A stretch of 64,000 nucleotides of DNA from Deroplatys truncata (Eukaryota > Arthropoda > Insecta > Mantodea > Mantidae). Below are positions 32,417 to 58,795 of this stretch, in pieces. How positions within the stretch are numbered: position 1 is the first letter of the stretch; each line of letters starts with the position of its first letter. The stretch is from the NCBI GenBank assembly GCA_030765065.1, contig CM060988.1:178973065-179037064 (forward strand), in the 5' to 3' direction. Position numbers and translations under genes: made by a program. The notes below the pieces were generated by a model. The model was not told where the DNA came from. It did no database searches and saw only the letters and a program-made list of their open reading frames with translations.

Positions 32417-32557
32417 TTTTACTTTCTCTACTGCGTATAGTAAGTAGGGGAAGTAATGCATTCCACCCAAAAATTCGATACCGAGATTTCACCGGTAATA
32501 TATGTTTTGAGATCCCCTGAATCCAAAAAAAGCCTTTTTAGAAACATGTCCGTGTGT

Positions 32558-32600
<43 letters not shown>

Positions 32601-36375: not shown

Positions 36376-36381
36376 ATGAAC
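36376..36381. other. target-site duplication, left copy (ATGAAC)
   Basis: ATGAAC directly precedes the first base of the left arm and recurs directly after the last base of the right arm (55279-55284). A 6-bp duplication is characteristic of Polinton/Maverick integration. Confidence 0.8.
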
Positions 36382-36446
36382 AGTAGAAAATAAATGAGAG
36401 AACGGAAACACATGGGATTTGCCGCCATCTGATAAGGTTCTTTGAT

Positions 36447-36870
36447 CTATGCCGCTAGCCCCGCCCCCTCCCTTTGTGTTCTCACACGCCGGCCTGGTCG
36501 CGTGGCGCTAGCCCCGCCCCCTTCCCTTTGTGTGCTGATCTAATGCCGACAGTGTCTGTGCCGGCAGGTCCTCCCCCCTCCCCCTGTGGTCTGGTCACGT
36601 GCCGGTATCCCCGCCCCCCTCCCTCCCCCATACGCGTGTCCTCCCTCCCCTTTGTGTTCTGGTTGGTTCCCTGTGGATAGGTGGGAGAGTGTGTATTGTT
36701 CCTATACGGTGACTACATTCCCGCCCCTCATTGTGACTTGTCTAAATCCCTGCCGTGTGATTGGCTTGGGGTAGGGGATGTGCCGCTCGGGGTGAGGGGT
36801 TATATGTGGGGGTTCTCGGTGCGTGACGTTGGCGATGTGGGAATGCGATTCTCGATGCCTGCCGCACATC
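36447..36870. repeat. GC-rich subterminal block, left
   Basis: Four imperfect units built on GCTAGCCCCGCCCCCTCCCT followed by TTTGTGTTCT and a GCCGGC-type word, at about 36453, 36508, 36563 and 36605. The C-rich G-box (CCCCGCCCCC) motifs contrast sharply with the AT-rich surroundings. Such blocks could be promoter-like or transposase-binding sites. The proline-rich ORFs over it are not genes. Confidence 0.7.
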
Positions 36871-36939
36871 GGCAAATCGTTTGAGTACATAATTGTGTCA
36901 ATCAATTAGGTAATGTGTGTTATTGAAAAACGAATCGCC

Positions 36940-39070
36940 ATCATATTACTACTAATGCAATTAAACGCTATTCTTCGAGCAATTAAGTATTTTTGATTGA
37001 ATCGCGCGCACCTGTCCCTAAACCGTTATTTATAACCTACTATTGTCAATAAATTACACGTCTAATGAAACAAGGCTAGTCTGTCGATGAAAACAATTAA
37101 GTATTTTTTGAATGATTAATTGACTCGCACGCAACTGTTCGTTATCGTATATGTGTGGTAGCATGTGTATAATTATTACGAGTAATAACATTTATTTAAT
37201 TCTACTTTTGAGGGAAAATATATTTTGGATTTATAAGAATATTACAACACTTAGATGAAAGGACAGACTTGACGTAACACTCGTTATCGCGTGATAATTG
37301 CGGTGGAACACCGAACGCAACCTTCCGCTGCGAGACGTTTCACTGGAATGACTAGCTCACGGTGCTTTCAAGCGACAAGTCGACTAGCGCACCCCCTCCA
37401 CTCACGCTTCAGTTCGCTACCTACACTAGCGCGCCAAGTGGTAATATGAGTGAAACTCCAGCGAGTGTTCCCACACAGCGCCCCTGGTGGTCATACCCGA
37501 AAGTTGTGAATTCACCATATTTAAACTCATTATGGGCGCAAGACGGCCATCTTAACTCTATATAACTCTGCGAAATATGATTCCGGAAAAAAATAAAGGT
37601 GAATTAACATGCAAGGGGCGTTCATGTTGGCTCCGGAGGAATTGATTACGAAATAAATAAAAAATAAATAAGACTCTCGCTGATCGATGAATACAATTAA
37701 ATATTTTTATTAATTAATGTAATTGACTCGCGCTCCTAGAGATATCTCACCCAATTATTCATCTACCATGAATATCTCACTTCTAATGAAACGACGCAGT
37801 CTATCGATTAAAAACAATTAAGTTTTTTTTGATTGATTAATGTAATTGACTCGCGCGCAACTGTTCGTTATCGTATATGCGCGATTATTACGAGTAATAA
37901 CGTTTGTTTAATTCTTCATTTGACTGGAGGGTTTATAAAAAATATTACATTGCTTAGATGAATTAAAAAGCAACTTAAAGCGAAATTGCAAATAGCTTGT
38001 ATGAGACGTTAACACGAGAACCGTTTACGAAAAAACAAGACGCAATGTGACAGCAATGCCCCGTCCATCATGAGAAGAGGTTAAACCAGGACGCTTGGGT
38101 TTTCCCTCAGTACCTGCACTTAATGGCTAGGGGTATCCAGCACATGGGAGTATGCTTCACCTGATGTTAAAAATAAAAGCCCTCTATGTCTCTTCTCATA
38201 CGAGAGAAGTAATAATTACAATTCAAAACAGGCGTACCTGTAAGTAACACGCACGAAGACTTCAAATATAAATTTTATATTCGTTTTAAATGTTCTTTCT
38301 AAAGACGTAGCGAACTTTGAGAAATTCAACGAATTATTTACTTGCGTACACTGCTTGAAAGAAATATGGTGTACACCCCTGAAGAATGCGTGTGTAGACA
38401 CATTAGCAGGCGACAGTCCCTTCCGCATCATTAATTTTCTTCAGACGAAGTTAAAACCAAGGTCTTGTATAGAGCTCTTAGTGAACAATGAAGGGTGTTT
38501 CCAGTTCATTAAGCAGGCTAAGTGCTCTGAAAAACCACAGACCCTCGGGGTAAATAACTATTAGCGACACAAAAGATTTTCTTAAGAGCTTCCCCTGTGC
38601 AGAAATTCCATCATAGACAGGGGAAAACCAAGTCTAGACATGTTTTAAGCTTACCACAAAAAATGTTTTCCCGATAATTAATATAATTCTACATGAAGAA
38701 TATTAATGATTAAGTTTTCAATTAAACGTATACTGTATAGATTCTGTACTTAAACATTCGATTGTATCTTTGTCATTATTTAAATACTCGCGTACAAGAA
38801 ATGCAAACATGATATCAAAAAATTAAACTGATTTTTTTTCGGAATGTTAAACAAAGAAATATGATTTGGCGAGAGTAATATGAAGAATAAAAAGTATTCA
38901 GAATGATAGATATTACATACGTTATTAAAATAAATAAGGCTCTCACTGATCGATGAAAACAATTAAATATTTTTTATTAATTAATTGTATATGAACTGAC
39001 TTGCGCATTTGCTTGCTGTCGTATGTGTATGATTATTACGGCTAATAGCATTTGTTTAATTCTAAATAAT
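36940..39070. repeat. AT-rich subterminal repeats, left
   Basis: A module with ACAATTAAGTATTTTTT, a TTAATTGACTCGCGCGCAAC block, CTGTTCGTTATCGTATATG and the palindrome ATTATTACGAGTAATAAC recurs in full or part at about 36980, 37090-37200, 37685-37750, 37800-37910 and 38945-39060. Multiple dispersed copies near a transposon end are typical of transposase binding sites, although none is proven here. Confidence 0.7.
38244..38564 (+). CDS. possible exon, 106 codons, cysteine-rich, left arm
   Basis: An open frame without an ATG runs from 38244 to a stop at 38562-38564. It contains FEKFNELFTCVHCLKEIWC and NACVDTLAGDSPFRIINFLQ; CX2C and later cysteines hint at a zinc-binding module. AACAG just upstream (about 38225-38230) could be a splice acceptor, so a downstream exon is possible. 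The same frame is open at 53096-53416 on the minus strand of the right arm, but the arms are so alike that this is weak evidence. I do not recognise the protein; chance is a real alternative. Confidence 0.25.
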   Translation, partial: VTRTKTSNINFIFVLNVLSKDVANFEKFNELFTCVHCLKEIWCTPLKNACVDTLAGDSPFRIINFLQTKLKPRSCIELLVNNEGCFQFIKQAKCSEKPQTLGVNNY

Positions 39071-39291
39071 GAAATATGGAGCCTTGCCTAAACAATCCTC
39101 GTTACTCTTAATTTATTCCATTTTAAAAAGATTGGGCTTAGTAAACATAGGACGAGTACGATTTTAAATACCCCGTCCATTCGAGAGATATTTTTCGAAT
39201 ATTCCAGCATGTTAATATAAACTTAATACACACACAAAAAAAATTCATTTCAAGTAATATTTGTGCGACATTAAGTATTTGCGACTGAGTT
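38565..39291. other. AT-rich arm sequence, with a short hairpin
   Basis: CCCCTGT and ACAGGGG at about 38591 and 38618 could form a small 7-bp stem. Otherwise there is only AT-rich subterminal repeat sequence. Confidence 0.35.
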
Positions 39292-40132
39292 TTTACTTTC
39301 TATACTACGTATAGTAAGTAGAGGAAGTGTTGTATTCCACCCGAAAAAATCGATACCGAGATTTCACCGGAAATACATGTTTTGAGACCCTCTGAATCCG
39401 AAAAAGCATGGTTGTCTGCGAGTGTGCCTGTGAAACATAACTCAGAAACGAAGAGGCGGATAAAACACCAAACTTGGTATTTAGGTTCAGTATCTTCCAG
39501 AGATGCGACACGAAGGTTTTAAAGAAAATGCCTCACACCAGACTACCCTTTACATGGAACATTTCTCGAAAATTTTAATTTTCTCAAAAATGACTCTAAC
39601 GATATTGAATAAAATATTATATGTTTAAGATATTGTAATGAGATGTATATCTCGAATTTTCAGGGAATGTCTCCAAAAGTATTCTTCATTCTGAACGACT
39701 TTTGCAAAAATTGATAAACCATAAGAGATAGACAAAATTTTACTACACACAAAAAAAATGGAGATCGCGTTAAAATACATAATTTATATCATATTCATTC
39801 TTGTTGTTGAGTAAATCATTTTCGGGATATTGCTTGTTATTCCCTTAAAATTTCCAATACTTATACTTTTTCTCAAATTCGTTATTCTTGTTTTTATGTT
39901 CTGGACATGCAAAGAGAATGGAATGCGGCACATAGCAATCAGCGTTAAAATAATTTGACTATGGCTTAAAACCTACCATATTCACCTTGTATCGTCATGA
40001 AAATTACCAATAACATCGACATCTCGATATCTCGATTAACATGAAGCATATAGGGAATAAGTGTTTGTAAAAATAGTTTGTACAAGAGTAGAGAAAGTCA
40101 TGTGAGTGTAACACATCAGAATTTTTGATATT
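39292..40132 (+). repeat. ACT repeat embedded in the left arm
   Basis: Starts ACTTTCTATACTACGTATAG and ends GTGAGTGTAACACATCAGAA. Its mirror copy occupies 51528-52368 in the right arm, so it entered before the arms were last homogenised. The TG microsatellite is reduced to TGCGAGTGTGCCTGTG. Confidence 0.85.
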
Positions 40133-40559
40133 GGTTTAAATTTTCAAATACTTTTAACTTTTCTCAAATGGTAACTTGCTATTCATTTTTCCAACGATAA
40201 TGCATAGAGAATAGAATTCTAAAGCCATCACATAGCATCAGACGTTTTTTAAACATCTGTAACGTATCTATTCACAATCGAAAGGTCGCTGGTTCGAGGA
40301 CAATTATATCTACAGAAACAATACATTATTTTCACTCAGTGATTAATTTGGTAATGTAACAATAATTAACAATGAATTTTAATGGTACATGTAAAAATAA
40401 AATATATTTTTATTTCTAGCGTCATACGCAGAAACATTCCCCTTAAGGAACGCTGGCGTGATCGAAGGATTTCCCCCATAACAGGTTTAGACGTACTTAC
40501 GAAATGTCCCTGTGCGAGGCTAGCATTTCCCTCTACTTCTCCTCGAATTTTTGGAGTAG

Positions 40560-40636
40560 CCAATCAAAATTACTGTATTATATACCGTCACATCTCTCAC
40601 CCCTTCAGATTTTTATCAGACGAATCGATATAAAAG
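40560..40636 (+). promoter_or_regulatory. CCAAT and TATA boxes of the spliced gene, left arm
   Basis: CCAAT at 40560-40564 and GATATAAAAG at 40627-40636, with a TCACTGT initiator-like word near 40657, about 75 bp before the start codon. The spacing fits an RNA polymerase II promoter. The mirror copy is at 51024-51099. Confidence 0.65.
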
Positions 40637-40733
40637 CAGTAGCTTCCCCAGCGATTTCACTGTATTGTGACAACACAGCAAGCTAAGATCTCTGCAAACT
40701 TTTCTCATTCAAAGTGAAATTTCAACGAACATC

Positions 40734-41732
40734 ATGTCTGGTAAGTTGTAACAAAACACTTCATTTACTTTAAAAGTTAAATTATTACTCTGTACATTTA
40801 ACTTATATTCGCGTTCTTGTTTTTAATGCATGGCATTTATATGCGAATAGCTGAGCATTCTAAAAGTTAATAGCTAGACAAGTGAATTTTCTGAAATGTG
40901 AACAGTTTAGTTAAGTATTCATTTTAGGCAAGCTTATTCTACATTTAATAGCTAACTGCGGGAATTCTCAAAATGGGGACAATTTAGTTAAGTATTCACC
41001 TTGTTGAGTAATTATTATTCCAGATATTTAAATACAGGATTTCACAGAGTGAATTATATTCCTTTTGGAGAAAATACAATTATTTGAAAACCTTATTAAC
41101 GTTTTTGCTTTAGAATATTACAAAAAGTCTGTTGCGCGAATCATTTGCTCTAACAAAGTAAATATCTACATTATATTAAAACATTTAAATCGAAAAATAC
41201 AGTACTTAATGAACTTCATTAGTGAATCAGAACCTCAATTATATTTACACATATTATCATTTTCAGAAAAAAGTTAATAAGTTTGTAACTTTCAAATAAA
41301 TGAAATTTTGTTATGCAACACATTCTCTAATAAAGAATATGTTTTTTTTCTCTTCCTAATGCAGAAAGTTTGACATCTCAACTTAACACATTGGCTGAGG
41401 GTAGCATTTACCCAGCCGTTCAAAGACTACAAGATCTTCAGCCCGAGGAGCCTTATAATATAAAATCCTTAAGAAAAATCGATACTCGATACGGTGCTAG
41501 AGTCGTTGCACTTTTAGAGAATAAGCAAGTGTTTCTTCCGACAAGATATTCAACCCTAACAACCCAACAGCTGGAGGAAATGCCAGGGAAGTTTCAAATG
41601 GTATATCATGGAGTAGTACCAGCCGGCAAGTTTAAGACATGTAAATTGTCTTTTCTTCCTATTAAGGTTTGTAGAAATAATTCAACTACCCTTTCAAAGC
41701 TTCATTTAGAGTTACATTCGTTGAGTTTATAA
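40734..41732 (+). CDS. two-exon gene for a 124-residue protein, left-arm copy
   Basis: Exon 1 is only ATGTCTG (40734-40740), followed by donor GTAAGT. The intron is 40741-41364, ending in a pyrimidine tract and CTTCCTAATGCAG. Exon 2 is 41365-41732. Splicing joins G to AA and continues the open frame, giving a start MSESLTSQLNTLAEGSIYPA and a core with KIDTRYGARVVALLENKQVF, LPTRYSTLT and LEEMPGKFQMVYHG. I recall a loose family of small multicopy arthropod proteins sharing TKYG..V...L...VFLP.RY, possibly OB-fold-like nucleic-acid binders, but cannot verify that. Intact frame, splice signals and promoter argue for a functional gene of the element. The 70-codon ORF at 41065-41277 lies in the intron and is dismissed. 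Confidence 0.7.
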
Positions 41733-41744
41733 ATTCACACTTCA

Positions 41745-42060
41745 GTAGGATAACATTTGTCTAAAGTATACATCAATATGTAAAAAAATAACGTCCAGGA
41801 TGTAGTCTGAGCGAGGATCTGCAGAAAGAAGTTTAATAGTCTATTCACTGATTCTTTACCTCAAAGCAGATACCTACAGCAAGTTTCAAATAATTTCCAG
41901 CACGATAGCAGTTGTCAAAAGCATGCATCACTGTATTAAAAAATATGTGTAAATAATGTCTAGATTGCACTCTGTGTGATTTCGTGCAGAAAGAACTTTA
42001 ATACCCCTTGCAGTGATTCTCCACATCGAAGTATATACCTACAAGAAGTTGCAAATAATG
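41745..42060. repeat. diverged tandem duplication of about 160 bp downstream of the spliced gene
   Basis: GATAACATTTGTCTAAAGTA, then CTGCAGAAAGAAGTTTAATA and GATACCTACAGCAAGTTTCA in unit 1 correspond to GATAGCAGTTGTCAAAAGCA, GTGCAGAAAGAACTTTAATA and TATACCTACAAGAAGTTGCA in unit 2 (from about 41906). Mirrored in the right arm at about 49599-49914. Confidence 0.7.
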
Positions 42061-42245
42061 TGAATGTGTGTTACAGGAATGCCCAGCTGAATGTAAATGA
42101 AGAGGAAGAACGAGATAGCTTAAAACATCATAAACAGAAATGTGATAGGAACATTCTCAACACCACCCAGTAACCTCAATCAATGAAGAATTGCACCAGC
42201 GCGGAACATACATGGAAAAAAAACACCCGCGTGTGTAGAATATAA

Positions 42246-42271
42246 CAATAATATATATATATATATATATA
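42246..42271. repeat. (AT)n microsatellite, longer than its mirror copy
   Basis: About 12 AT units; the right-arm equivalent at about 49392-49409 is several units shorter. This independent length change shows that the arms are distinct sequences and not an assembly reflection. Confidence 0.75.
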
Positions 42272-42791
42272 AATTATGTACTCATTATTACTGCTATACC
42301 AGCCTATACCATTGATTTCATAAATAATTTCATAATTGTTTAAGGAGAATGCCTATCTTAAAAAATTGATGCTACATGAAATCTAAACAAAAAGATTATT
42401 GAACTATTACTGAAAGAGACTTGAATAAATGGGAATCTAGAAGCCAGAACCATCTTAATATTGGGCTGTATGATATGAGGTGTATAAAAAGATTAATAAA
42501 AAAATGAGGTCTATGTAATATAAACAACATTTATTTTTTGTAAACATTTTCCTATTACATTCCTATACAAAAAACATACATATTTCCTAAAGACAATGGT
42601 GATAGTCTAGACATTCTAAAACACTCAGTTATATAATCATATACATCACACAGAAAGAGACCTACATTATCCATAAAAAACTAAACATCTCATGAATGTC
42701 TGGATGATGTATTTTGTAAGTACAAGGTTTTGATATTTCAAAGTTCCTGTTAACCATGACTGTAATTGATTAACACAATTTCTCGATCCTG

Positions 42792-43010
42792 TCATGCTAT
42801 AACTTTAGAAGCTTTCAGCTTACTTATAATCTCCTCAATCTCTCGTGTGTGACTATTATTACCAGCATTCCTCGATGCAATTAGTAACCTCAATATATTT
42901 ACTAGTCTATTTGGATTTTCAAGCGTAGATATCACTGAATCATCATCATATGAAGATTCCATATTCTCGCGACTCCCGCTGTATCCAGATTTTTCACCAT
43001 CAGTAGTCTC
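42792..43010 (-). pseudogene. truncated zinc-finger gene, left-arm remnant
   Basis: The last 70 or so codons of the right-arm zinc-finger gene are present (TTDGEKSGYSGSRENMESSY through EEIISKLKASKVIA). The frame is cut at the inner boundary of the arm and runs upstream into 71-bp repeats. The zinc finger and start codon are missing, so it cannot make the right-arm product. One substitution is visible (NMESS versus NMKSS). Confidence 0.8.
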
Positions 43011-43533
43011 TCTGCTCTCTGGAAACATTCGTGGAAAAAAGGATGCTCTCAACAGAACATGGCGACTGCGAGCATGGAAAAAGGATGCTCTCTGGAAACA
43101 TTCGTGGAAAAGGATGCTCTCAACAGAACATGGCGACTGCGAGCATGGAAAAAGGATGCTCTCTGGAAACATTCGTGGAAAAGGATGCTCTCAACAGAAC
43201 ATGGTGACTTCGAGCATGGAAAAAGGATGCTCTCTGGAAACATTCGTGGAAAAGGATGCTCTCAACAGAACATGGCGACTGCGAGCATGGAAAAAGGATG
43301 CTCTCTGGAAACATTCGTGGAAAAGGATGCTCTCAACAGAACATGGCGACTGCGAGCATGGAAAAAGGATGCTCTCTGGAAACATTCGTGGAAAAGGATG
43401 CTCTCAACAGAACATGGCGACTGCGAGCATGGAAAAAGGATGCTCTCTGTAAACATTCGTGGAAAAGGATGCTCTCAACAGAGCATGGCGACTGCGAGCA
43501 TGGAAAAAGGATGCTCTCTGGAAACATTCCTGC
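43011..43533 (+). repeat. 71-bp tandem repeats, left array (about 7 copies)
   Basis: Each unit has two parts beginning AAAAGGATGCTCTC: one continues TGGAAACATTCGTGG and the other AACAGAACATGGCGACTGCG then AGCATGG. Units are 71 bp, so each repeat shifts frame and all three frames stay open. ORFs here on both strands are repeat artefacts. The same repeat lies inverted at 47436-48262. Confidence 0.95.
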
Positions 43534-46500
43534 TGATCACGCTATGTAACAAAGGAATCACGCTATGTAACAAAGGAATCACGCTATGTAACAAAGGAAT
43601 CACGCTATGTAACAAAGGAATCACGCTATGTAACAAACTGATCACGCTATGTAACAAAGGAATCACGCTATGTAACAAAGGGATCACGCTATGTAACAAA
43701 GTGATCACGCTATGTAACAAGCTCATCACGCTATGTAACAAAAGAATCACGCTATGTAACAAAGGAATCACGGTATGTAACAACGGATTCACGCTATGTA
43801 ACAACCTGTTTGCGCTATGTAACAAAGGAATCACGCTATGTAACAAAGGAATCACGCTATGTAACAAACTGATCACGCTATGTAACAAACTGATCAGGCT
43901 ATGTAACAAAGGAATCACGCTATGTAACAAAGGAATCACGCTATGTAACAACCTGTTCGCCCTATGTAACAAAAGAATCACGCTATGTAACAAAGGAATC
44001 ACGCTATGTAACAAACAGATCACGCTATGTAACAAAGGTATCACGCTATGTAACAAAGGAATCACGCCATGTAACAAACTGATCACGCTATGTAACAAAG
44101 GAATCACGCTATGTAACAAACTGATCACGCTATGTAACAAAGGAATCAAACTATGTAACAAGCTCATCACGCTATGTAACAAACTGATCACGCTATGTAA
44201 CAAAGGAATCACGCTATGTAACAAAGGAATCACGCTATGTAACAATGGAATCACGCTATGTAACAACCTGTTCGCGCTATGTAACAAAGGAATCACGCTA
44301 TGTAACAAAGGAATCACGCTATGTAACAAACAGATCACGCTATGTAACAAACAGATCACGCTATGTAACAAGCTTTTCACGCTATGTAACAATCTGATCA
44401 CGCTATGTAACAAAGGAATCACGCTATGTAACAAAGGAATCACGCCATGTAACAAAGGAATCACGCTATGTAACAAACTGATCAGGCTACGTAACAAAGG
44501 AATCGCGCTATGTAACAAAGGAATCGCGCTATGTAACAAAGGAATCCCGCTATGTAACAAAGGAATAACGCTATGTAACAAAGGAATCACGCTATGTAAC
44601 AAAGGAATCACGTTATTTAACAAAGGAATCACGCTATGTAACAAAGGAATCACGCTATGTAGCAAAGGAATCACGCTATGTAACAAACTCATCACGCTAT
44701 GTAACAAAGGAATCACGCTATGTAACAAAGGGATCACGCTATGTAACAAAGTGATCACGCTATGTAACAAGCTCATCACGCTATGTAACAAAAGAATCAC
44801 GCTATGTAACAAAGGAATCACGCCATGTAACAAAGGAATCACGCTATGTAACAAACTGATCAGGCTATGTAACAAAGGAATCGCGCTATGTAACAAAGGA
44901 ATCGCGCTATGTAACAAAGGAATCCCGCTATGTAACAAAGGAATTACGCCATGTAACAAAGGAATCACGCTATGTAACAAACAGATCACGCTATGTAACA
45001 AGCTTTTCACGCTATGTAACAATCTGATCACGCTATGTAACAAAGGAATCACGCTATGTAACAAAGGATTCACGCTATGTAACAAAGGAATCACGCCATG
45101 TAACAAAGGAATCACGCTATGTAACAAACTGATCAGGCTATGTAACAAAGGAATCGCGCTATGTAACAAAGGAATCGCGCTATGTAACAAAGGAATCCCG
45201 CTATGTAACAAAGGAATCACGCAATGTAACAAAGGAATCACGCTATGTAACAAAGGATTCACGCTATGTAACAACCTGTTCGCGCTATGTAACAAAGGAA
45301 TCACGCTATGTAACAAAGGAATCACGCTATGTAACAAAGGAATCACGCTATGTAACAAAGGAATCACGCCATGTAAAAAACTGATCACGCTATGTAACAA
45401 AGGAATCACGCTATGTAACAAACTGATCACGCTGTGTAACAAAGGAATCAAGCTATGTAACAAGCTCATCACGCTATGTAACAAACTGATCACGCTATGT
45501 AACAAAGGAATCACGCTATGTAACAAAGGAATCACGCTATGTAACAATGGAATCACGCTATGTAACAACCTGTTCGCGCTATGTAACAAAGGAATCACGC
45601 TATGTAACAAAGGAATCACGCTATGTAACAAACAGATCACGCTATGTAACAAGCTTTTCACGCTATGTAACAATCTGATCACGCTATGTAACAAAGGAAT
45701 CACGCTATGTAACAAAGGATTCACGCTATGTAACAAAGGAATCACGCCATGTAACAAAGGAATCACGCTATGTAACAAACTGATCAGGCTATGTAACAAA
45801 GGATACGCGCTATGTAACAAAGGAATCGCGCTATGTAACAAAGGAATCCCGCTATGTAACAAAGGAATCACGCTATGTAACAAAGGAATCACGGTATGTA
45901 ACAAAGGAATCACGCTATGTAACAAAGGAATCACGCTATGTAACAAAGGAATCACGCCATGTAACAAAGGAATCACGCTATGTAACAAACAGATCACGCT
46001 ATGTAACAAGCTTTTCACGCTATGTAACAATCTGATCACGCTATGTAACAAAGGAATCACGCTATGTAACAAAGGATTCACGCTATGTAACAAAGGAATC
46101 ACGCCATGTAACAAAGGAATCACGCTATGTAACAAACTGATCAGGCTATGTAACAAAGGAATCGCGCTATGTAACAAAGGAATCCCGCTATGTAACAAAG
46201 GAATCACGCTATGTAACAAAGGAATCACGGTATGTAACAAAGGAATCACGCTATGTAACAAAGGAATCACGCTATGTAACAAAGGAATCACGCCATGTAA
46301 CAAAGGAATCACGCTATGTAACAAACTGATCAGGCTATGAAACAAAGGAATCGCGCTATGTAACAACCTCATCACGCTATGTAACAAAGGAATCACGCTA
46401 TGTAACAAAGGAATCGCGCTATGTAACAAAGGAATCGCGCTATGTAACAAAGGAATCACGCTATGTAACAAAGGAATCACGCTATGTAACAAACTGATCA

Positions 46501-47403
46501 GGCTATGTAACAAAGTGATCAGTCTATGTAACAAAGGAATCACGCTATGTAACAAACGAATCACGGTATGTAACAAAGGAATCACGCTATGTAACAAAGG
46601 AATCACGCTATGTAACAAAGGAATCACGCTACGTAACAAAGGAATCACGCTATGTAACAAAGGAATCACGCTATGTAACAAACTGATCAGGCTATGTAAC
46701 AAAGTGATCAGTCTATGTAACAAAGGAATCACGCTATGTAACAAAGGAATCACGCTCTGTAACAAAGGAAACACGCTATGTAACAAAGGAATCACGCTAT
46801 GTAACAAAGGAATCACGCCATGTAACAAAGGAATCACGCTATGTAACAAACTGATAAGGCTATGTAACAAAGGAATCGCGCTATGTAACAAAGGAATCAC
46901 GCTATGTAACAACGGAATCACGCCATGTAAAAAAGGAATCACGCTATGTAACAAAGGAATCACGCTATGTAACAAGCTCATCACGCTATGTAACAAACTG
47001 ATCAGGCTATGTAACAAAGGAATCGCGCTATGTAACAACCTCATCACGCTATGTAACAAACTGATCACGCTATGTAACAAAGGAATCACGCTATGTAACA
47101 AAGGGATCACGCTATGTAACAAAGGAATCACGCTATGTAACAAAGGAATCACGCTATGTAACAATGGAATCACGCTATGTAACAAACTGATCAGTCTATG
47201 TAACAAAGGAATCACGCTATGTAACAAAGGAATCACGCTATGTAACAAAGGAATCACGCCATGTAACAAAGGAATCACGCTATGGAACAAACTGATCAGG
47301 CTATGTAACAAAGGAATCGCGCTATGTAACAAAGGAATCGCTCTATGTAACAAAGGAATCACGCTATGTAACAAGCTCATCACGCTATGTAACAAACTGA
47401 TCA
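43534..47403 (+). repeat. 21-bp satellite, about 184 copies, open on both strands
   Basis: The unit has the invariant core ATCACGCTATGTAACAA followed by a variable 3-4-base slot (AGGA, ACTG, ACAG, GCTC and others). As 21 is divisible by three and the unit lacks stops in certain frames, it yields a 1093-codon plus-strand frame of GITLCNK-type heptads and a 1311-codon minus-strand frame of SVIPLLH heptads. Variant words such as AGCTTTTCACGCTATG recur at 44371, 45001, 45652 and 46009 (offsets 630, 651 and 357, all multiples of 21), so blocks have been duplicated. A genuine repetitive protein cannot be excluded but nothing else supports one. Confidence 0.95.
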
Positions 47404-47435
47404 GGTTCATAGCGCAATCAGGTTGTTACGCATCC
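47404..47435 (-). repeat. inverted 21-bp units at the palindrome axis
   Basis: After AACTGATCAGG the sequence reads TTCATAGCGCAATCAGGTTG and TTACGC, the reverse complement of one and a half 21-bp units. The orientation switch at about 47400 marks the actual axis of the palindrome. It shows that nearly all the 21-bp array sits on one side. Confidence 0.7.
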
Positions 47436-48262
47436 TATTCCACAAACGTTTCCAGAGAGCATCCTTTTTCCATGCTCGCAGTCGCCATGTTCTGTTGAGA
47501 GCATCCTTTTCCGCTAATGTTTCCAGAGAGCATCCTTTCTCCATGCTCGCAGTCGCCATGTTCTGTTGAGAGCATCCTTTTCCACGAATGTTTCCAGAGA
47601 GCATCCTTTTTCCATGCTCGCAGTCGCCATGTTCTGTTGAGAGCATCCTTTTCCACGAATTTTTCCAGAGAGCATCCTTTTTCCATGCTCGCAGTCGCCA
47701 TGTTCTGTTGAGAGCATCCTTTTCCACGAATGTTTCCACAGAGCATCCTTTTTCCATGCTCGCAGTCGCCATGTTCTGTTGAGAGCATCCTTTTCCACGA
47801 ATGTTTCCAGAGAGCATCCTTTTTCCATGCTCGCAGTCGCCATGTTCTGTTGAGAGCATCCTTTTCCACGAATGTTTCCAGAGAGCATCCTTTTTCCATG
47901 CTCGCAGTCGCGATGTTCTGTTGAGAGCATCCTTTTCCACGAATGTTTCCAGAGAGCATCCTTTTTCCATGCTCGCAGTCGCCATGTTCTGTTGAGAGCA
48001 TCCTTTTTTCCACGAATGTTTCCAGAGAGCATCCTTTTTCCATGCTCGCAGTCGCCATGTTCTGTTGAGAGCATCCTTTTTTCCACGAATGTTTCCAGAG
48101 AGCATCCTTTTTCCATGCTCGCAGTCGCCATGTTCTGTTGAGAGCATCCTTTTTTCCACGAATGTTTCCAGAGAGCATCCTTTTTCCATGTTCGCAGTCG
48201 CCATGTTCTGTTGAGAGCATCCTTTTTTCCACGAATGTTTCCAGAGAGCATCCTTTTCCCTC
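47436..48262 (-). repeat. 71-bp tandem repeats, right array (about 11.5 copies)
   Basis: The same repeat as the left array in the opposite orientation, with more copies. The three outermost junctions have two extra T (TTTTTTCCACG), giving 73-bp spacing; the corresponding longer A run appears once at the outer edge of the left array. Long ORFs at 47407-48340 are repeat artefacts. Confidence 0.95.
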
Positions 48263-48402
48263 TGCTATGCGTAGATCGCGATTCCCTCCGGCGTCCTTAC
48301 CCTGGATATATACATAGCTGCGTGTTATGAATTCATTCATTCGCTTTTAATTCTTTCGAGCGTTAGCATTCCCGTATTCATTTAATTTCTTTTAGTTTTA
48401 GC
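48263..48402 (+). promoter_or_regulatory. 5' region of the zinc-finger gene
   Basis: Single-copy sequence between the 71-bp array and the ATG. GGATATATACATAG at 48304-48317 is a possible TATA box about 90 bp upstream of the start. TTTAATTTCTTTTAG shortly before the ATG resembles a splice acceptor, so the upstream boundary of the transcript is uncertain. Confidence 0.4.
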
Positions 48403-48870
48403 ATGAGTTCCTGCCGGAGAAAATCTGTGCAACTAGCGAATGAGAAACTGAATTTTTCATACATTACACATGGAGGAAAACACGTCATTAGATGCTGTAT
48501 ATGCGAGCGGATTTTTAAGAATCGTTCTTTGTCAAGATTTAAGCTTCATAGAGCAACATGTTATACTGGATCGACTCTCTCTCCTACACTCGAAGATCCG
48601 AAGATGTATAGAGGGGGATGTTATACCGGATCAAGCCTCTGTCCTTCACTGGAGACTACTGATGGTGAAAAATCTGGATACAGCGGGAGTCGCGAGAATA
48701 TGAAATCTTCATATGATGATGATTCAGTGATATCTACGCTTGAAAATCCAAATAGACTAGTAAATATATTGAGGTTACTAATTGCATCGAGGAATGCTGG
48801 TAATAATAGTCACACACGAGAGATTGAGGAGATTATAAGTAAGCTGAAAGCTTCTAAAGTTATAGCATGA
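48403..48870 (+). CDS. small C2HC zinc-finger-like protein gene, right inner boundary
   Basis: An intact 155-codon frame from the ATG at 48403 to TGA at 48868. Residues 31-53 contain C31, C34, H49 and C53 (RCCICERIFKNRSLSRFK then LHRATC), a C2HC arrangement similar to compact DNA- or RNA-binding fingers. Next come two tandem copies of CYTGS.L.P.LE and a polar, acidic C-terminal half ending in a helical EIEEIISKLKASKV. A polyadenylation signal AATAAA lies at 49127-49132. The 3' half is within the right arm and the 5' half is unique, so this is the only complete copy. It is convergent with the spliced gene at 49927-50925. I do not recognise the family. Confidence 0.6.
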   Translation: MSSCRRKSVQLANEKLNFSYITHGGKHVIRCCICERIFKNRSLSRFKLHRATCYTGSTLSPTLEDPKMYRGGCYTGSSLCPSLETTDGEKSGYSGSRENMKSSYDDDSVISTLENPNRLVNILRLLIASRNAGNNSHTREIEEIISKLKASKVIA

Positions 48871-49126
48871 CAGGATCGAGAAATTGTGTTAATCAATTAC
48901 AGTCATGGTTAACAGGAACTTTGAAATATCAAAACCTTGTACTTATAAAATACATCATCCAGACATTCTTGAGATGTTTAGTTTTTTATGGATAATGTAG
49001 GTCTCTTTCTGTGTGATGTATATGATTATATAACTGAGTGTTTTAGAATGTCTAGACTATCACCTTTGTCTTTAGGAAATATGTATGTTTTTTGTATAGG
49101 AATGTAATAGGAAAATGTTTATAAAA

Positions 49127-49132
49127 AATAAA
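49127..49132 (+). terminator. polyadenylation signal AATAAA of the zinc-finger gene
   Basis: AATAAA about 257 bp after the stop codon, followed by a T/GT-rich stretch (ATGTTGTTTATATT). Confidence 0.5.
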
Positions 49133-49926
49133 TGTTGTTTATATTACATAGACCTCATTTTTTTTATTAATCTTTTTATACACCTCATATCATACAGCCC
49201 AATATTAAGATGGTTCTGGCTTCTAGATTCCCATTTATTCAAGTCTCTTTCAGTAATAGTTCAATAATCTTTTTGTTTAGATTTCATGTAGCATCAATGT
49301 TTTTAAGATAGGCATTCTCCTTAAACAATTATGAAATTATTTATGAAATCAATGGTATAGGCTGGTATAGCAGTAATAATGAGTACATAATTTATATATA
49401 TATATATTATTGTTATATTCTACACACGCGGGTGTTTTTTTTCCATGTATGTTCCGCGCTGGTGCAATTCTTCATTGATTGAGGTTACTGGGTGGTGTTG
49501 AGAATGTTCCTATCACATTTCTGTTTATGATGTTTTAAGCTATCTCGTTCTTCCTCTTCATTTACATTCAGCTGGGCATTCCTGTAACACACATTCACAT
49601 TATTTGCAACTTCTTGTAGGTATATACTTCGATGTGGAGAATCACTGCAAGGGGTATTAAAGTTCTTTCTGCACGAAATCACACAGAGTACAATCTAGAC
49701 ATTATTTACACATATTTTTTTAATACAGTGATGCATGCTTTTGACAACTGCTATCGTGCTGGAAATTATTTGAAACTTGCTGTAGGTATCTGCTTTGAGG
49801 TAAAGAATCAGTGAATAGACTATTAAACTTCTTTCTGCAGATCCTCGCTCAGACTACATCCTGGACGTTATTTTTTTACATATTGATGTATACTTTAGAC
49901 AAATGTTATCCTACTGAAGTGTGAAT

Positions 49927-50925
49927 TTATAAACTCAACGAATGTAACTCTAAATGAAGCTTTGAAAGGGTAGTTGAATTATTTCTACAAACCTTAATAG
50001 GAAGAAAAGACAATTTACATGTCTTAAACTTGCCGGCTGGTACTACTCCATGATATACCATTTGAAACTTCCCTGGCATTTCCTCCAACTGTTGGCTTGT
50101 TAGGGTTGAATATCTTGTAGGGAGAAACACTTGCTTATTCTCTAAAAGTGCAACGACTCTAGCACCGTATCGAGTATCAATTTTTCTTAAGGATTTTATA
50201 TTATAAGGCTCCTCGGGCTGAAGATCTTGTAGTCTTTGAACGGCTGGGTAAATGCTACCCTCAGCCAATGTGTTAAGTTGAGATGTCAAACTTTCTGCAT
50301 TAGGAAGAGAAAAAAAACATATTCTTTATTAGAGAATGTGTTGCATAACAAAATTTCATTTATTTGAAAGTTACAAAATTATTAACTTTTTTCTGAAAAT
50401 GATAATATGTGTAAATATAATTGAGGTTCTGATTCACTAATGAAGTTCATTAAGTACTGTATTTTTCGATTTAAATGTTTTAATATAATGTAGATATTTA
50501 CTTTGTTAGAGCAAATGATTCGCGCAACAGACTTTTTGTAATATTCTAAAGCAAAAACGTTAATAAGGTTTTCAAATAATTGTATTTTCTCCAAAAGGAA
50601 TGTAATTCACTCTGTGAAATCCTGTATTTAAATATCTGGAATAATAATTACTCAACAAGGTGAATACTTAACTAAATTGTCCCCATTTTGAGAATTCCCG
50701 CAGTTAGCTATTAAATGTAGAATAAGCTTGCCTAAAATGAATACTTAACTAAACTGTTCACATTTCAGAAAATTCACTTGTCTAGCTATTAACTTTTAGA
50801 ATGCTCAGCTATTCGCATATAAATGTCATGCATTAAAAACAAGAACGCGAATATAAGTTAAATGTACAGAGTAATAATTTAACTTTTAAAGTAAATGAAG
50901 TGTTTTGTTACAACTTACCAAACAT
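49927..50925 (-). CDS. two-exon gene for a 124-residue protein, right-arm copy
   Basis: Mirror copy of the gene at 40734-41732. Exon 1 is 50925-50919 (ATGTTTG), the intron runs 50918-50295 with GT/AG ends, and exon 2 is 50294-49927. Two amino-acid differences are visible from the left copy: residue 2 is F instead of S, and STLTSQQ replaces STLTTQQ. Frame, splice signals and the 124-residue length are preserved. Retention of an intact frame in both arms is expected either from purifying selection or from recent arm homogenisation, and the sequence alone cannot separate these. Confidence 0.7.
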
Positions 50926-51023
50926 GATGTTCGTTGAAATTTCACTTTGAATGAGAAAAGTTTGCAGAGATCTTAGCTCGCTGTGTTGTCACAATACAGT
51001 GAAATCGCTGGGGAAGCTACTGC

Positions 51024-51099
51024 TTTTATATCGATTCGTCTGATAAAAATCTGAAGGGGTGAGAGATGTGACGGTATATAATACAGTAATTTTGATTGG
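51024..51099 (-). promoter_or_regulatory. TATA and CCAAT boxes of the spliced gene, right arm
   Basis: GATATAAAAG read on the minus strand at 51033-51024 and CCAAT at 51099-51095, identical in spacing to the left-arm promoter. Confidence 0.65.
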
Positions 51100-51527
51100 C
51101 TACTCCAAAAATTCGAGGAGAAGTAGAGGGAAATGCTAGCCTCGCACAGGGACATTTCGTAAGCACGTCTAAACCTGTTATGGGGGAAATCCTTCGATCA
51201 CGCCAGCGTTCCTTAAGGGGAATGTTTCTGCGTATGACGCTAGAAATAAAAATATATTTTATTTTTTACATGTACCATTAAAATTCATTGTTAATTATTG
51301 TTACATTACCAAATTAATCACAGAGTGAAAATAATGTATTGTTTCTGTAGATATAATTGTCCTCGAACCAGCGACCTTTCGATTGTGAATAGATACGTTA
51401 CAGATGTTTAAAAAACGTCTGATGCTATGTGATGGCTTTAGAATTCTATTCTCTATGCATTACCGTTGGAAAAATGAATAGCAAGTTACCATTTGAGAAA
51501 AGTTAAAAGTATTTGAAAATTTAAACC

Positions 51528-52368
51528 AATATCAAAAATTCTGATGTGTTACACTCACATGACTTTCTCTACTCTTGTACAAACTATTTTTACAAACACT
51601 TATTCCCTATATGCTTCATGTTAATCGAGATATCGAGATGTCAATGTTATTGGTAATTTTCATGACGATACAAGGTGAATATGGTAGGTTTTAAGCCATA
51701 GTCAAATTATTTTAACGCTGATTGCTATGTGCCGCATTCCATTCTCTTTGCATGTCCAGAACATAAAAACAAGAATAACGAATTTGAGAAAAAGTATAAG
51801 TATTGGAAATTTTAAGGGAATAACAAGCAATATCCCGAAAATGATTTACTCAACAACAAGAATGAATATGATATAAATTATGTATTTTAACGCGATCTCC
51901 ATTTTTTTGTGTGTAGTAAAATTTTGTCTATCTCTTATGGTTTATCAATTTTTGCAAAAGTCGTTCAGAATGAAGAATACTTTTGGAGACATTCCCTGAA
52001 AATTCGAGATATACATCTCATTACAATATCTTAAACATATAATATTTTATTCAATATCGTTAGAGTCATTTTTGAGAAAATTAAAATTTTCGAGAAATGT
52101 TCCATGTAAAGGGTAGTCTGGTGTGAGGCATTTTCTTTAAAACCTTCGTGTCGCATCTCTGGAAGATACTGAACCTAAATACCAAGTTTGGTGTTTTATC
52201 CGCCTCTTCGTTTCTGAGTTATGTTTCACAGGCACACTCGCAGACAACCATGCTTTTTCGGATTCAGAGGGTCTCAAAACATGTATTTCCGGTGAAATCT
52301 CGGTATCGATTTTTTCGGGTGGAATACAACACTTCCTCTACTTACTATACGTAGTATAGAAAGTAAAA
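51528..52368 (-). repeat. ACT repeat embedded in the right arm
   Basis: Mirror of 39292-40132, with termini TCTGATGTGTTACACTCACA and CTATACGTAGTATAGAAAGT. Confidence 0.85.
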
Positions 52369-52579
52369 ACTCAGTCGCAAATACTTAATGTCGCACAAAT
52401 ATTACTTGAAATGAATTTTTTTTGTGTGTGTATTAAGTTTATATTAACATGCTGGAATATTCGAAAAATATCTCTCGAATGGACGGGGTATTTAAAATCG
52501 TACTCGTCCTATGTTTACTAAGCCCAATCTTTTTAAAATGGAATAAATTAAGAGTAACGAGGATTGTTTAGGCAAGGCT

Positions 52580-54720
52580 CCATATTTCATTATTTAGAAT
52601 TAAACAAATGCTATTAGCCGTAATAATCATACAAATACGACAGCAAGCAAATGCGCAAGTCAATTCATATACAATTAATTAATAAAAAAATATTTAATTG
52701 TTTTCATCGATCAGTGAGAGCCTTATTTATTTTAATAACGTATGTAATATCTATCATTCTGAATACTTTTTATTCTTCATATTACTCTCGCCAAATCATA
52801 TTTCTTTGTTTAACATTCCGAAAAAAAATCAGTTTAATTTTTTGATATCATGTTTGCATTTCTTGTACGCGAGTATTTAAATAATGACAAAGATACAATC
52901 GAATGTTTAAGTACAGAATCTATACAGTATACGTTTAATTGAAAACTTAATCATTAATATTCTTCATGTAGAATTATATTAATTATCGGGAAAACATTTT
53001 TTGTGGTAAGCTTAAAACATGTCTAGACTTGGTTTTCCCCTGTCTATGATGGAATTTCTGCACAGGGGAAGCTCTTAAGAAAATCTTTTGTGTCGCTAAT
53101 AGTTATTTACCCCGAGGGTCTGTGGTTTTTCAGAGCACTTAGCCTGCTTAATGAACTGGAAACACCCTTCATTGTTCACTAAGAGCTCTATACAAGACCT
53201 TGGTTTTAACTTCGTCTGAAGAAAATTAATGATGCGGAAGGGACTGTCGCCTGCTAATGTGTCTACACACGCATTCTTCAGGGGTGTACACCATATTTCT
53301 TTCAAGCAGTGTACGCAAGTAAATAATTCGTTGAATTTCTCAAAGTTCGCTACGTCTTTAGAAAGAACATTTAAAACGAATATAAAATTTATATTTGAAG
53401 TCTTCGTGCGTGTTACTTACAGGTACGCCTGTTTTGAATTGTAATTATTACTTCTCTCGTGTGAGAAGAGACATAGAGGGCTTTTATTTTTAACATCAGG
53501 TGAAGCATACTCCCATGTGCTGGATACCCCTAGCCATTAAGAGCAGGTACTGAGGGAAAACCCAAGCGTCCTGGTTTAACCTCTTCTCATGATGGACGGG
53601 GCATTGCTGTCACATTGCGTCTTGTTTTTTCGTAAAGGGTTCTCGTGTTAACGTCTCATACAAGCTATTTGCAATTTCGCTTTAAGTTGCTTTTTAATTC
53701 ATCTAAGCAATGTAATATTTTTATAAACCCTCCAGTCAAAAGAAGAATTAAACAAACGTTATTACTCGTAATAATCGCGCATATACGATAAGGAACAGTT
53801 GCGCGCGAGTCAATTACATTAATCAATCAAAAAAAACTTAATTATTTTTAATCGATAGACTGCGTCGTTTCATTAGAAGTGAGATATTCATGGTAGATGA
53901 ATAATTGGGTGAGATATCTCTAGGAGCGCGAGTCAATTACATTAATTAATAAAAATATTTAATTGTATTCATCGATCAGCGAGAGTCTTATTTATTTTTT
54001 ATTTATTTCATAATCAATTCCTCCGGAGCCAACATGAACGCCCCTTGCATGTTAATTCCCCTTTATTTTTTTTCCGGAATCATATTTCGCAGAATTATAT
54101 AGAGCTAAGATGGCCGTCTTGCGCCCATAATGAGTTTAAATATGGTGAATTCACAACTTTCGGGTATGACCACCAGGGGCGCTGTGTGGGAACACTCGCT
54201 GGAGTTTCACTCATATTACCACTTGGCGCGCTAGTGTAGGTAGCGAACTGAAGCGTGAGTGGAGGGGGTGCGCTAGTCGACTTGTCGCTTGAAAGCACCG
54301 TGAGCTAGTCATTCCAGTGAAACGTCTCGCAGCGGAAGGTTGCGTTCGGTGTTCCACCGCAATTATCACGCGATAACGAGTGTTACGTCAAGTCTGTCCT
54401 TTCATCTAAGTGTTGTAATATTCTTATAAATCCAAAATATATTTTCCCTCAAAAGTAGAATTAAATAAATGTTATTACTCGTAATAATTATACACATGCT
54501 ACCACACATATACGATAACGAACAGTTGCGCGCGAGTCAATTAATCATTCAAAAAATACTTAATTGTTTTCATCGACAGACTAGCCTTGTTTCATTAGAC
54601 GTGTAATTTATTGACAATAGTAGGTTATAAATAACGGTTTAGGGACAGGTGCGCGCGATTCAATCAAAAATACTTAATTGCTCGAAGAATAGCGTTTAAT
54701 TGCATTAGTAGTAATATGAT
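52580..54720. repeat. AT-rich subterminal repeats, right
   Basis: Inverted counterpart of 36940-39070, with the palindrome GTTATTACTCGTAATAAT at about 53757 and 54470 and GCGCGCGAGTCAATT words nearby. Confidence 0.7.
53096..53416 (-). CDS. possible cysteine-rich exon, right arm
   Basis: Mirror of 38244-38564. The overlapping plus-strand frame at 53229-53444 has an ATG but no recognised motif. Either or neither may be coding. Confidence 0.22.
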   Translation of the reverse strand, partial: VTRTKTSNINFIFVLNVLSKDVANFEKFNELFTCVHCLKEIWCTPLKNACVDTLAGDSPFRIINFLQTKLKPRSCIELLVNNEGCFQFIKQAKCSEKPQTLGVNNY

Positions 54721-54789
54721 GGCGATTCTTTTTTCAATAACACACATTACCTAATTGATTGACACAATTATGTACTCAAACGATTTGCC

Positions 54790-55213
54790 AATGTGCGGCA
54801 GGCATCGAGAATCGCATTCCCACATCGCCAACGTCACGCACCGAGAACCCCCACATATAACCCCTCACCCCGAGCGGCACATCCCCTACCCCAAGCCAAT
54901 CACACGGCAGGGATTTAGACAAGTCACAATGAGGGGCGGGAATGTAGTCACCGTATAGGAACAATACACACTCTCCCACCTATCCACAGGGAACCAACCA
55001 GAACACAAAGGGGAGGGAGGACACGCGTATGGGGGAGGGAGGGGGGCGGGGACACCGGCACGTGACCAGACCACAGGGGGAGGGGGGAGGACCTGCCGGC
55101 ACAGACACTGTCGGCATTAGATCAGCACACAAAGGGAAGGGGGCGGGGCTAGCGCCACGCGACCAGGCCGGCGTGTGAGAACACAAAGGGAGGGGGCGGG
55201 GCTAGCGGCATAT
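54790..55213. repeat. GC-rich subterminal block, right
   Basis: Mirror of 36447-36870, with GGGGCGGGGCTAGCG words near 55138 and 55193. Confidence 0.7.
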
Positions 55214-55278
55214 ATCAAAGAACCTTATCAGATGGCGGCAAATTCCATGTGTTTCCGTTCTCTCATTTATTTTCTACT

Positions 55279-55284
55279 ATGAAC
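55279..55284. other. target-site duplication, right copy (ATGAAC)
   Basis: Matches 36376-36381 exactly and directly follows the terminal CT. Confidence 0.8.
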
Positions 55285-56461: not shown

Positions 56462-57318
56462 CACTTTTACTTTCTCTACTACGTAAGTAAGTAGGGGAAG
56501 TATTGCATTCCACCCAAAAATTTGATACTGAGATTTCACAGGAAATATATGTTTTCAGGCCCTCTGAATTAAAAAAAAACATTTCTATAAAGAGTTCCCT
56601 GTGCGTGTCTGTATATCTGTGAACAGTATAACTAAAATACGAAAATTCGGATAAATACAAAACTTGGTATTTGCATTCAGTATCTTCCAGAGATGCGACA
56701 CGAAGATTTCAACACAATCCCCCATCAGAGACTAAACTTTACATGAAAGATTTTCGAAAATTTTGATTTTTTCAACAATGCCTCCAATGATTTTGATTAA
56801 AATATAATATATTTAAAATATTTTCTGACAAATGAAATGTATATCCTAAATTGTCTAGGAATATCCCCAAAAGTGCTTTCATCGTGAATGACTTTTGTAT
56901 AACTGGTAATCTGTAACAGATAAACAAAGTTTTTCTACCCAAAAATTGTATATCTGATTTAAACACACAATTTATGTCATACACAATTTTTTGTGGAGTT
57001 TCTTGTTATTTGTTTGAATTATCCAACATATACTTTCTCTCAAGTGGGAATTCATTATTCGTTTTATTCTGTTTTTTCCCCTGGATATGCAGAGAAGAGA
57101 ATGTAATACCCCACATAGCAACCAGCTCTTAAAAGATTTGACTATCGCTTAAAGCCTACCAATTCCCCTTGCACCTATAAGAAAATTAGCAATAAGATAG
57201 TTTCTGCAAATGTTTATCTCGATTATCATAAAGCATATGGAGAATATGCGTTTGTAAAAATAGTTTGTACAAGAGTATAGAAAGTCATGTGAGTGTAATG
57301 CATCAGATTTTTATAAAT
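56462..57318 (+). repeat. ACT repeat, near-complete, head-to-head pair (left member)
   Basis: Starts TTTTACTTTCTCTACTACGT and ends GTGAGTGTAATGCATCAGAT. A reversed copy begins only about 15 bp later, so the pair forms a long imperfect inverted repeat. Confidence 0.75.
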
Positions 57319-57331
57319 ATGTATAAAAAAT

Positions 57332-58078
57332 CTTATGTGTTACACTCACATGACTTTCTGTACTCTTGTACAAATTATTTTTACAAACGCCTATTCTACA
57401 TATGCTTCAAGTTAATCGAGATATCGAGATGTTAATCTTATTGCTAATTTTCTTGTCGATGCAAGGGGAATTGGTAGGCTTTAAGCGATAGTCAAATATT
57501 TTAAGAGCTGGTTGCTATGTGGAGTATTCCGCTTTCTTTGCATTACCAGGACAAAAAGAATTGAATAACGAATTTGAGAAAAAGTATAAGTATTGGAAAA
57601 TTTAAGGGAATAACAAGAAACATCTCGAAAATGATCCACTCAACAAACAAAATGTATATTACATAAATTGTGTATTTTAACGCGATCTACATTTTTTGTG
57701 TAGTACAAGTTTGTCTATCTCTTATGGTTTACCAGTTATGCAAAAGTCGTTCACAATGAAGAATACTTTTGGAGACATTCCCAGAAAATTCGAAATATAC
57801 ATTTCATTTGTCATGAAAATATCTTAAACACATGATATTTGAATCAATATCGTTAGAGGCATTTTTGAGAAATAAAATTTTCAAAAAATGTTCCATGTAA
57901 AGGGTAGTCTGGGGTGGGGGTTTTTCTTGAAAATCTTCGTGTCGCATCTCTGGAAGATACTGAACCTAAATACTAAGTTTGGTGTTTATCCGACTGTTCG
58001 TTTCTGAGTTATGCTGTTCACAGACACACACACGGACATGTTTCCAAAAATGCTTACTATACGTAGTAGAGAAAGTAA
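57332..58078 (-). repeat. ACT repeat, minus orientation (right member of the pair)
   Basis: Begins TCTTATGTGTTACACTCACA and ends TACGTAGTAGAGAAAGTAAA. It lacks about 100 bp between the CA microsatellite and the terminus (ACATGTTTCCAAAAATGCTT joins directly to ACTATACGTAG). Confidence 0.75.
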
Positions 58079-58725: not shown

Positions 58726-58795
58726 AACAAACTGATGTGTTACATTCACATACTTTTTTTGCCCTCTATCCTTACAAACTATCCGTATGAAAGCT
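58726..58795 (-). repeat. ACT repeat distal-end scrap
   Basis: CTGATGTGTTACATTCACAT through ACAAACTATCCGTATGAAAG is the minus-strand distal end, abutting the next, plus-strand copy. Confidence 0.55.

Follow-up and report, generated by a model that had tools for sequence, protein, structure and literature searches.

The stretch of DNA analysed here (the window) covers 64,000 nucleotides of the mantis Deroplatys truncata (assembly GCA_030765065.1, contig CM060988.1, positions 178,973,065 to 179,037,064 of the forward strand) and contains a palindromic element of 18,897 bp at positions 36382–55278. We consider this element to be probably non-autonomous and derived from a Polinton/Maverick family of the same genome, as a self-complementary (snapback) form in which one half of the parent has been mirrored and which is mobilised by the parent's enzymes. 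The element is mobile and belongs to a large family in the host genome, as shown by its other copies, their 6-bp duplications and empty sites.

A mobile palindromic element with many copies in the host genome

The element has the termini AGTAG...CTACT, both of which start with AGTAGAAAATAAATGAGAG, and is flanked by a 6-bp target-site duplication, ATGAAC, on the left (36376–36381) and on the right (55279–55284). The left arm (36382–43012, + strand) measured 6,631 bp. The right arm (48652–55278, − strand) measured 6,627 bp and is the reverse complement of the left arm at 99.4% identity, with 40 substitutions in 6,623 aligned positions (6.0 per kb). The asymmetric elements described below have the counterpart of the outermost ~620 bp of the left arm as their inverted repeat. 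Outside the tandem repeats, the element holds no open reading frame (ORF) of the size of a double jelly-roll (DJR) capsid, ATPase, polymerase or integrase gene; no search by family was made for integrases. These measurements bear out the original prediction of a palindromic element with ATGAAC on both sides, complementary termini and a tandem-repeat centre, in which the arms make up 70% of the length and the Polinton genes are not visible.

That prediction had named the absence of other copies, empty sites and shared termini as grounds for its own rejection; other copies, empty sites and shared termini were all found in the host assembly. The first 425 bp of the window copy were used to query the 4.29-Gb genome, and 32 of the 40 matches scored (the best 40 of 2,565 candidates) formed inverted pairs by eye, spaced 16–32 kb apart, with the window's own pair counted. 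A conserved 35-nt subterminal pattern gave 1,280 matches genome-wide at no more than 3 mismatches (636 forward and 644 reverse), and the reversed-pattern control gave 0 matches genome-wide. The pairing of ends was scored on 100 listed places, which are exact 35-nt matches on C1–C3. Among these, 78 formed 39 (+,−) neighbour pairs, with a spacing of 15.0–26.2 kb in 38 pairs and 6.3 kb in one, and 22 ends were unpaired; no (−,+) or same-strand neighbours were found within 40 kb of each other. We estimate ~640 end pairs at the upper end, palindromic and asymmetric elements together, which is not a count of palindromes because the same ends bound both kinds alike.

Nine other palindromic copies were fetched (E2, E3, E4, E6, E7, E9, E11, E12 and E14), together with the ends of further copies. 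Fourteen end pairs were read, comprising 11 palindromic pairs (the window included), two asymmetric ones (E1 and C2b) and one from a sister family (L043/L044); C7b was counted as palindromic from its 1.5-kb ends and the presence of a 155-aa ORF at both sides. All 14 pairs carried a perfect 6-bp duplication, each of them different. Thirteen were found by script, and that of E2, ACCTTC, was read directly. Empty sites were found for two insertions: the window flanks joined across one duplication gave a contiguous repeat copy in L037 (74.8% over 420 bp), and the joined flanks of E2 were contiguous with positions 58828–59247 of the window (89% over 423 bp). The insertions of E7 and E14 are located in tandem arrays. 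The joined flanks of four of the 14 insertions (window, E2, C7b and C2b) match copies of an interspersed repeat, R, hinting at a target preference.

The termini of the 14 pairs read AGTAG or AGTAT. At least five variants of the terminal ~22 nt were present across copies, and the first 24 nt were the same at both ends of one copy in 12 of the 14 pairs and agreed at 23 of 24 positions in the other two. The arrangement seen in the window is not due to chance, because it was found at other loci with different flanks. Long palindromes are difficult to assemble, and a false mirror arm might arise as an assembly artefact. We give this explanation almost no weight, given the private mutations that distinguish the arms, the recurrence of the arrangement at many loci with different flanks, and the balanced counts of forward and reverse ends.

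The two arms of most copies are closest to each other

We compared the arms of the eight copies in which both arms lay in single pieces (window, E2, E3, E4, E7, E11, E12 and E14). Besides the window's 40, left/right substitutions numbered 8 in 7,162 positions in E2, 8 in 7,147 in E3, 78 in 7,150 in E4, 13 in 7,086 in E7, 11 in 7,139 in E11, 15 in 6,577 in E12 and 92 in 6,583 in E14. Five of the eight copies thus had a within-copy rate of 1.1–2.3 substitutions per kb and the window one of 6.0, compared with 7.9–68.5 between copies. In six of the eight, the partner arm was nearer than any arm of another copy, much as with the long terminal repeats (LTRs) of retrotransposons. Left/right differences in these six copies were private to one arm in 86 of 95 cases (35/40, 8/8, 8/8, 13/13, 10/11 and 12/15). 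When 13 pairs were compared over their outer 1.5 kb, the within-copy distance was smaller than that to the nearest other sequence in nine (with E2 tied at the precision printed), and a tree placed the arms as sisters in eight; the exceptions include the non-palindromes E1 and C2b. Among the insertions or deletions (indels) of at least 3 nt that differ between copies, 32 were always present on both arms (10 of them within one replaced stretch).

Across the window and the nine fetched copies, arm length ranged from 6.6 to 8.1 kb. In E6 and E9 the right arm came in two pieces; these copies showed 7 mismatches in 8,099 aligned columns and 12 in 7,677, respectively. E6 (C16:670520020-670536243; 16,224 bp) is palindromic nearly from end to end around a loop of 30 nt. 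The alignment of its arms has 4 gap positions in the 8,099 columns, and its 520-nt centre gave a folding energy of −328 kcal/mol compared with −62 for shuffled sequences (z = −53). E14 reached 32.1 kb because its centre is ~18 kb long.

The palindrome arm matches one end of asymmetric elements

The asymmetric elements E1 (C16:251640834-251661070; 20,237 bp, duplication AGTATG) and C2b (C2:135808445-135828203; 19,759 bp, duplication GATGTA) were read over 1.5–1.9 kb per end. In each of them the two ends share only ~620 bp and are unrelated beyond that (at most 45% identity per 150-bp bin). The L end of E1 matched the arm of palindrome E2 at 99% identity over 1.9 kb, and the L end of C2b matched palindrome arms at 92–93% over 1.5 kb. 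E1 and C2b hence share with the palindromes the ~620 bp at both ends plus all L-end sequence read. Their R end is a different sequence, unlike the palindrome arm, and was also found in L052 and L060, where it carries a first-exon-like frame. At the sequence level, the palindrome arm corresponds to one end of the asymmetric element, and because of this match it probably represents half of a larger parent that is asymmetric.

We further searched the genome for genes of the Polinton type. The DJR capsid domain PF21738 gave strong matches (the best 126 of 7,124 candidates scored, E 2e-109 to 3e-107). Among the matches listed, it lay inside seven of the 39 end-bounded elements on C1–C3, compared with 0.025 expected by chance, and in all seven it was 2.7–3.7 kb from one end and read towards that end. 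One such capsid-bearing copy is C1:301415447-301435781. By the matches listed, another 14 of the 39 contained arm genes, none contained capsid and arm genes together, and 18 were unclassified. The exact 35-nt subterminal match bounds palindromic and capsid-bearing elements alike. In a further 30 bounded pairs, the matches listed placed PF21738 once (C7:54572761-54593072), at the same position as in the seven, and an A32-type ATPase twice (C9:179990601-180007464 and C16:396249259-396266755), in elements with related AGTAG ends. Family-B polymerases of the Polinton type are abundant in the genome (the best 76 of 11,882 candidates scored). From the shared ends it would follow that the capsid-bearing and the asymmetric elements are the same kind of element. 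The copies with 6-bp duplications, the paralogous empty sites and the termini shared with DJR-capsid elements all support the originally predicted non-autonomous Polinton-like element.

Two candidates for the autonomous form were rejected. The 16.4-kb element L043/L044, whose ends match at 99% over 1.5 kb, has in 3 kb of its interior (L059) a relative of the 155-aa ORF and a polymerase-fragment match at chance level; we keep it as a sister family and not as a helper. The loci bearing family-B polymerases were set aside because the sole link found between them and the window family is a ~98-bp AGTAG...CTACT hairpin.

Intact vertebrate Mavericks are described as having inverted repeats of 46–1,447 bp, a size of 12.7–24.6 kb, 6-bp duplications and AGT- or AG-type ends (PMC8097293). 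The palindromes resemble them in their 6-bp duplications, AGT...ACT ends and mostly in size, some elements sharing the palindromes' ends carry a DJR capsid gene, and the ~620-bp inverted repeats of E1 and C2b fall inside the 46–1,447-bp range. These two asymmetric elements agree with the Mavericks in every feature compared. The palindromes differ from the Mavericks of that study in their 6.6–8.1-kb arms, which are mirror-symmetrical save for the centre, and, as judged from the window element outside its tandem repeats, in having no ORFs sized for polymerase, integrase, ATPase or capsid. The strict (AGT)2 end repeat reported there for vertebrates is replaced by AGTAGA or AGTATA in the mantis elements. 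Inverted repeats of at most about 1.4 kb around a unique interior, as expected of an autonomous Polinton, were found in E1 and C2b and not in the palindromes. Since the palindromes fit Polintons in ends, duplication and mostly size and not in repeat length or genes, we class them as a palindromic non-autonomous derivative and not as a Polinton.

Galileo and Foldback elements of Drosophila also have long inverted repeats with internal tandem repeats, and copies without transposase are common among them (PMC3573991). A Fold-back/P-superfamily (Galileo-like) element whose inverted repeats are very long and repetitive inside could accordingly show the long arms, the tandem repeats adjoining the centre and the copies without transposition genes seen here. 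Galileo as described in that source, however, has 7-bp duplications, a P-type transposase and terminal inverted repeats (TIRs) of up to 1.26 kb (PMC3573991), whereas the duplications here are of 6 bp, the arms are 5–6 times as long as the longest Galileo TIR, and the ends are common to capsid-bearing elements. This origin is therefore very improbable, and the 'fold-back class' of the original prediction stands as a description of shape only, the 6-bp duplication differing from Galileo's 7 bp. Teratorn differs as well, being described as a herpesvirus–piggyBac fusion of 41–182 kb with 18-bp TIRs (PMC6431247). No report of palindromic Polintons was found in a literature search that left subscription journals mostly outside.

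Small ORFs in the arms and the centre of the palindrome

Each arm contains a putative exon, exon A, of ~92 aa that reads inward. The left copy (41365–41640, + strand) has splice-like borders, with TTCTCTTCCTAATGCAG before and GTAAAT after, and the right copy (50019–50294, − strand) is its mirror image. The frame was intact in all 20 arms, and genome-wide (the best 150 of 6,928 candidates scored) 149 of the 150 had no stop. These 150 resolved into 65 (+,−) pairs and 20 unpaired matches, with (−,+) pairs absent. Exon A matched neither Pfam nor PHROGs families and had no solved structural relative. Its pN/pS was 0.15, compared with 0.22–2.03 in five control frames; few changes underlie this figure because all copies agree at ~99% in their inner arms, and it gives weak evidence of coding or selection.

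A 155-aa ORF with a zinc-finger-like CxxC...HxxxC motif (48403–48870, + strand) reads outward from the centre in the right arm. In the window copy it is whole on the right arm only, and the left arm retains its last 72 codons (42792–43010). It was intact in 18 of the 19 arms of the window family in which it is whole, with a 7-nt deletion in arm L011, and is also present in the sister element (L059); genome-wide, all 150 scored matches (the best 150 of 7,149 candidates) were stop-free. It had no Pfam or PHROGs match, and its pN/pS of 0.53 gives no evidence of coding, as it lies within the range of the control frames (0.44–0.76). The suggestion in the original prediction that the arms themselves carry the genes thus holds for two conserved small ORFs per arm and fails for replication or integration genes. 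The two ORFs may help in replication or regulation.

Next to the arms of the window copy lie two 71-bp tandem arrays, of 7.3 copies on the left (43013–43529, + strand) and 11.5 copies on the right (47430–48257, − strand), the latter inverted relative to the former. The unpaired centre between them is a 21-bp tandem array of 184 copies (43536–47396). The length of this central array varies greatly among copies, and none was detected in E6. The innermost ~395 bp of the right arm (48258–48651) are unpaired in the window copy; its left arm is without this segment, which both arms of the other fetched copies have.

Palindromes could also be made at a single locus, if two full-length copies in inverted orientation recombine or a nested insertion is inverted, and one half mirrored around an axis would be expected in this case too. 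In all 14 copies read, however, the flanking 6-mers match as a single duplication and the sites differ, the copies examined have 71-bp repeats at the axis, and the 65 exon A pairs among the 150 best-scored matches are in one orientation throughout, with 20 unpaired. Because of the matching duplications and the 71-bp repeats at the axis, the palindromes seem to have been inserted as palindromes, and we regard an origin at single loci as highly unlikely.

A stretch of repeat R is present in the left arm (39290–40132), with its mirror in the right arm (51534–52369). R, an interspersed repeat of roughly 0.9–1.3 kb, also occurs in the window at 11376–12829, 15818–16423, 32412–33258, 56465–58055 and 58795–59653. 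Upstream of the element, positions 18211–28075 form a 9.9-kb array with 130 copies of a 76-bp unit, which differs from the element's own arrays. An older second palindrome around this array, at 18–28 kb, was considered and rejected, as its inverted matches all belong to a single interspersed repeat. Searches against Rfam, tRNA, Pfam, PHROGs, PDB and viral contigs returned nothing useful.

Other palindromic elements in the genome

A query with a 463-aa polymerase N-terminus gave 92 scored places, 62 of which formed 31 head-to-head (−,+) pairs, with no (+,−) pairs. Twelve of the 31 pairs were spaced 5,265–5,268 bp apart, and many had 1,225-aa open frames on both sides; examples are C1:91485318-91490115 (partly L040) and C1:239829960-239836615. 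Judged from this arrangement, the pairs would represent a second type of palindromic element with a DNA polymerase in each arm, that is, a self-complementary element with its own polymerase, and palindromic replicons seem to have been made more than once in the same genome. The axis in some of these copies is a 98-bp hairpin. The ~98-bp AGTAG...CTACT hairpin was found between mirrored flanks in L038, L040, L042, L045, L047, L048, L050 and L058, and the bases flanking it co-vary on both sides (GATTAAAC/GTTTAATC, GATTAACC/GGTTAATC and GATTAAAT/ATTTAATC), as though a fold-back copy had turned around at the hairpin. Three pairs of capsid-domain matches are divergent (−,+) and 9–22 kb apart (C4:95173324/95185244, C10:54203865/54213293 and C16:687831100/687853440); these are possibly palindromes from the capsid half of the parent. 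Three polymerase matches in the same direction (C5:170607977, 170614944 and 170621914) show a tandem arrangement with a spacing of ~6.97 kb.

Discussion

Protein-primed, strand-displacing replication is well established, and from it and from the snapback genomes of adeno-associated virus (AAV) we infer how the palindromes may have arisen. In a parent undergoing such replication, the growing or displaced strand would fold back ~8 kb from the L end and copy itself. The hairpin so formed would become a palindromic dimer bearing the L terminus at both ends. The two L termini would supply an origin and an integrase site at either end, and the dimer could be replicated and integrated by the polymerase and integrase of the parent. 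Because every cycle would let one arm template or correct the other, both arms would evolve as a single 8-kb half-genome and be near-identical at birth, and the variable tandem array at the axis would act as a loop or spacer.

AAV snapback defective-interfering genomes are described as self-complementary and replicated by parental functions (PMC8235507). Like them, the palindromes would join a part of the parental genome to its own complement and keep one kind of terminal origin. AAV, as presented in that source, differs in being a small parvovirus with rolling-hairpin replication, whereas the window family would have a Polinton-like parent and its products are integrated, inherited and numerous.

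Several observations weigh against a mirrored Polinton half as the origin of the family. That the L half of E1 and C2b is arm-like up to the palindrome axis is extrapolated from the 1.5–1.9 kb read per end. PF21738 was found in only one of the 30 further bounded pairs and, among the matches listed, in none of 15 more, most of these pairs having AGTAG ends of other subfamilies; the exact match between the ends of both ATPase-bearing elements and those of some palindromes is limited to 23 nt. None of the 76 best-scored polymerases lay inside the 84 end-bounded elements (integrase was not searched by family), and no hairpin or extrachromosomal intermediate was observed. In two of the eight copies compared, E4 and E14, the partner arm is no nearer than the arms of other copies and the differences lie in patches, 69 of the 78 in E4 falling in a single 1-kb stretch. 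For 19 indels of at least 3 nt, one copy or more had the indel on a single arm. Homogenisation would therefore be incomplete, or exchange has occurred later.

The patchy differences in E4 and E14 resemble exchange tracts, and palindromes are known substrates of gene conversion. This could point to an ordinary DNA element with long TIRs, its arms duplicated at one time and since kept alike by conversion between them after insertion, as in sex-chromosome palindromes. The differences in the six other copies, however, are mostly private single changes, as if the arms start identical and then decay; the end variants agree at both ends of each copy; and conversion does not explain why the arm matches the asymmetric elements at one end. 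We therefore consider this alternative rather unlikely and favour the snapback derivative of a Polinton parent.

A more far-reaching version, which we offer tentatively and at somewhat less than even chances, is that the palindromes form a lasting lineage of snapback satellites. They would be half-genome palindromes that replicate as hairpins, live as parasites of capsid-bearing Polintons and perhaps of their particles, and may have outgrown the parent, with selection keeping two small genes per arm.

In viruses with terminal origins, AAV among them, snapback genomes are familiar by-products; in this mantis they appear to form an inherited family of many element copies, alongside the apparent parent in the same genome. 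The replication of Polintons has been argued mainly from the type of their polymerase, and the palindromes, if this reading is true, would be a genomic record of its mode. Each insertion could be dated from the difference between its arms, as is done with LTRs, and parasite–host dynamics among transposons could be tested through the number of palindromes relative to parents.

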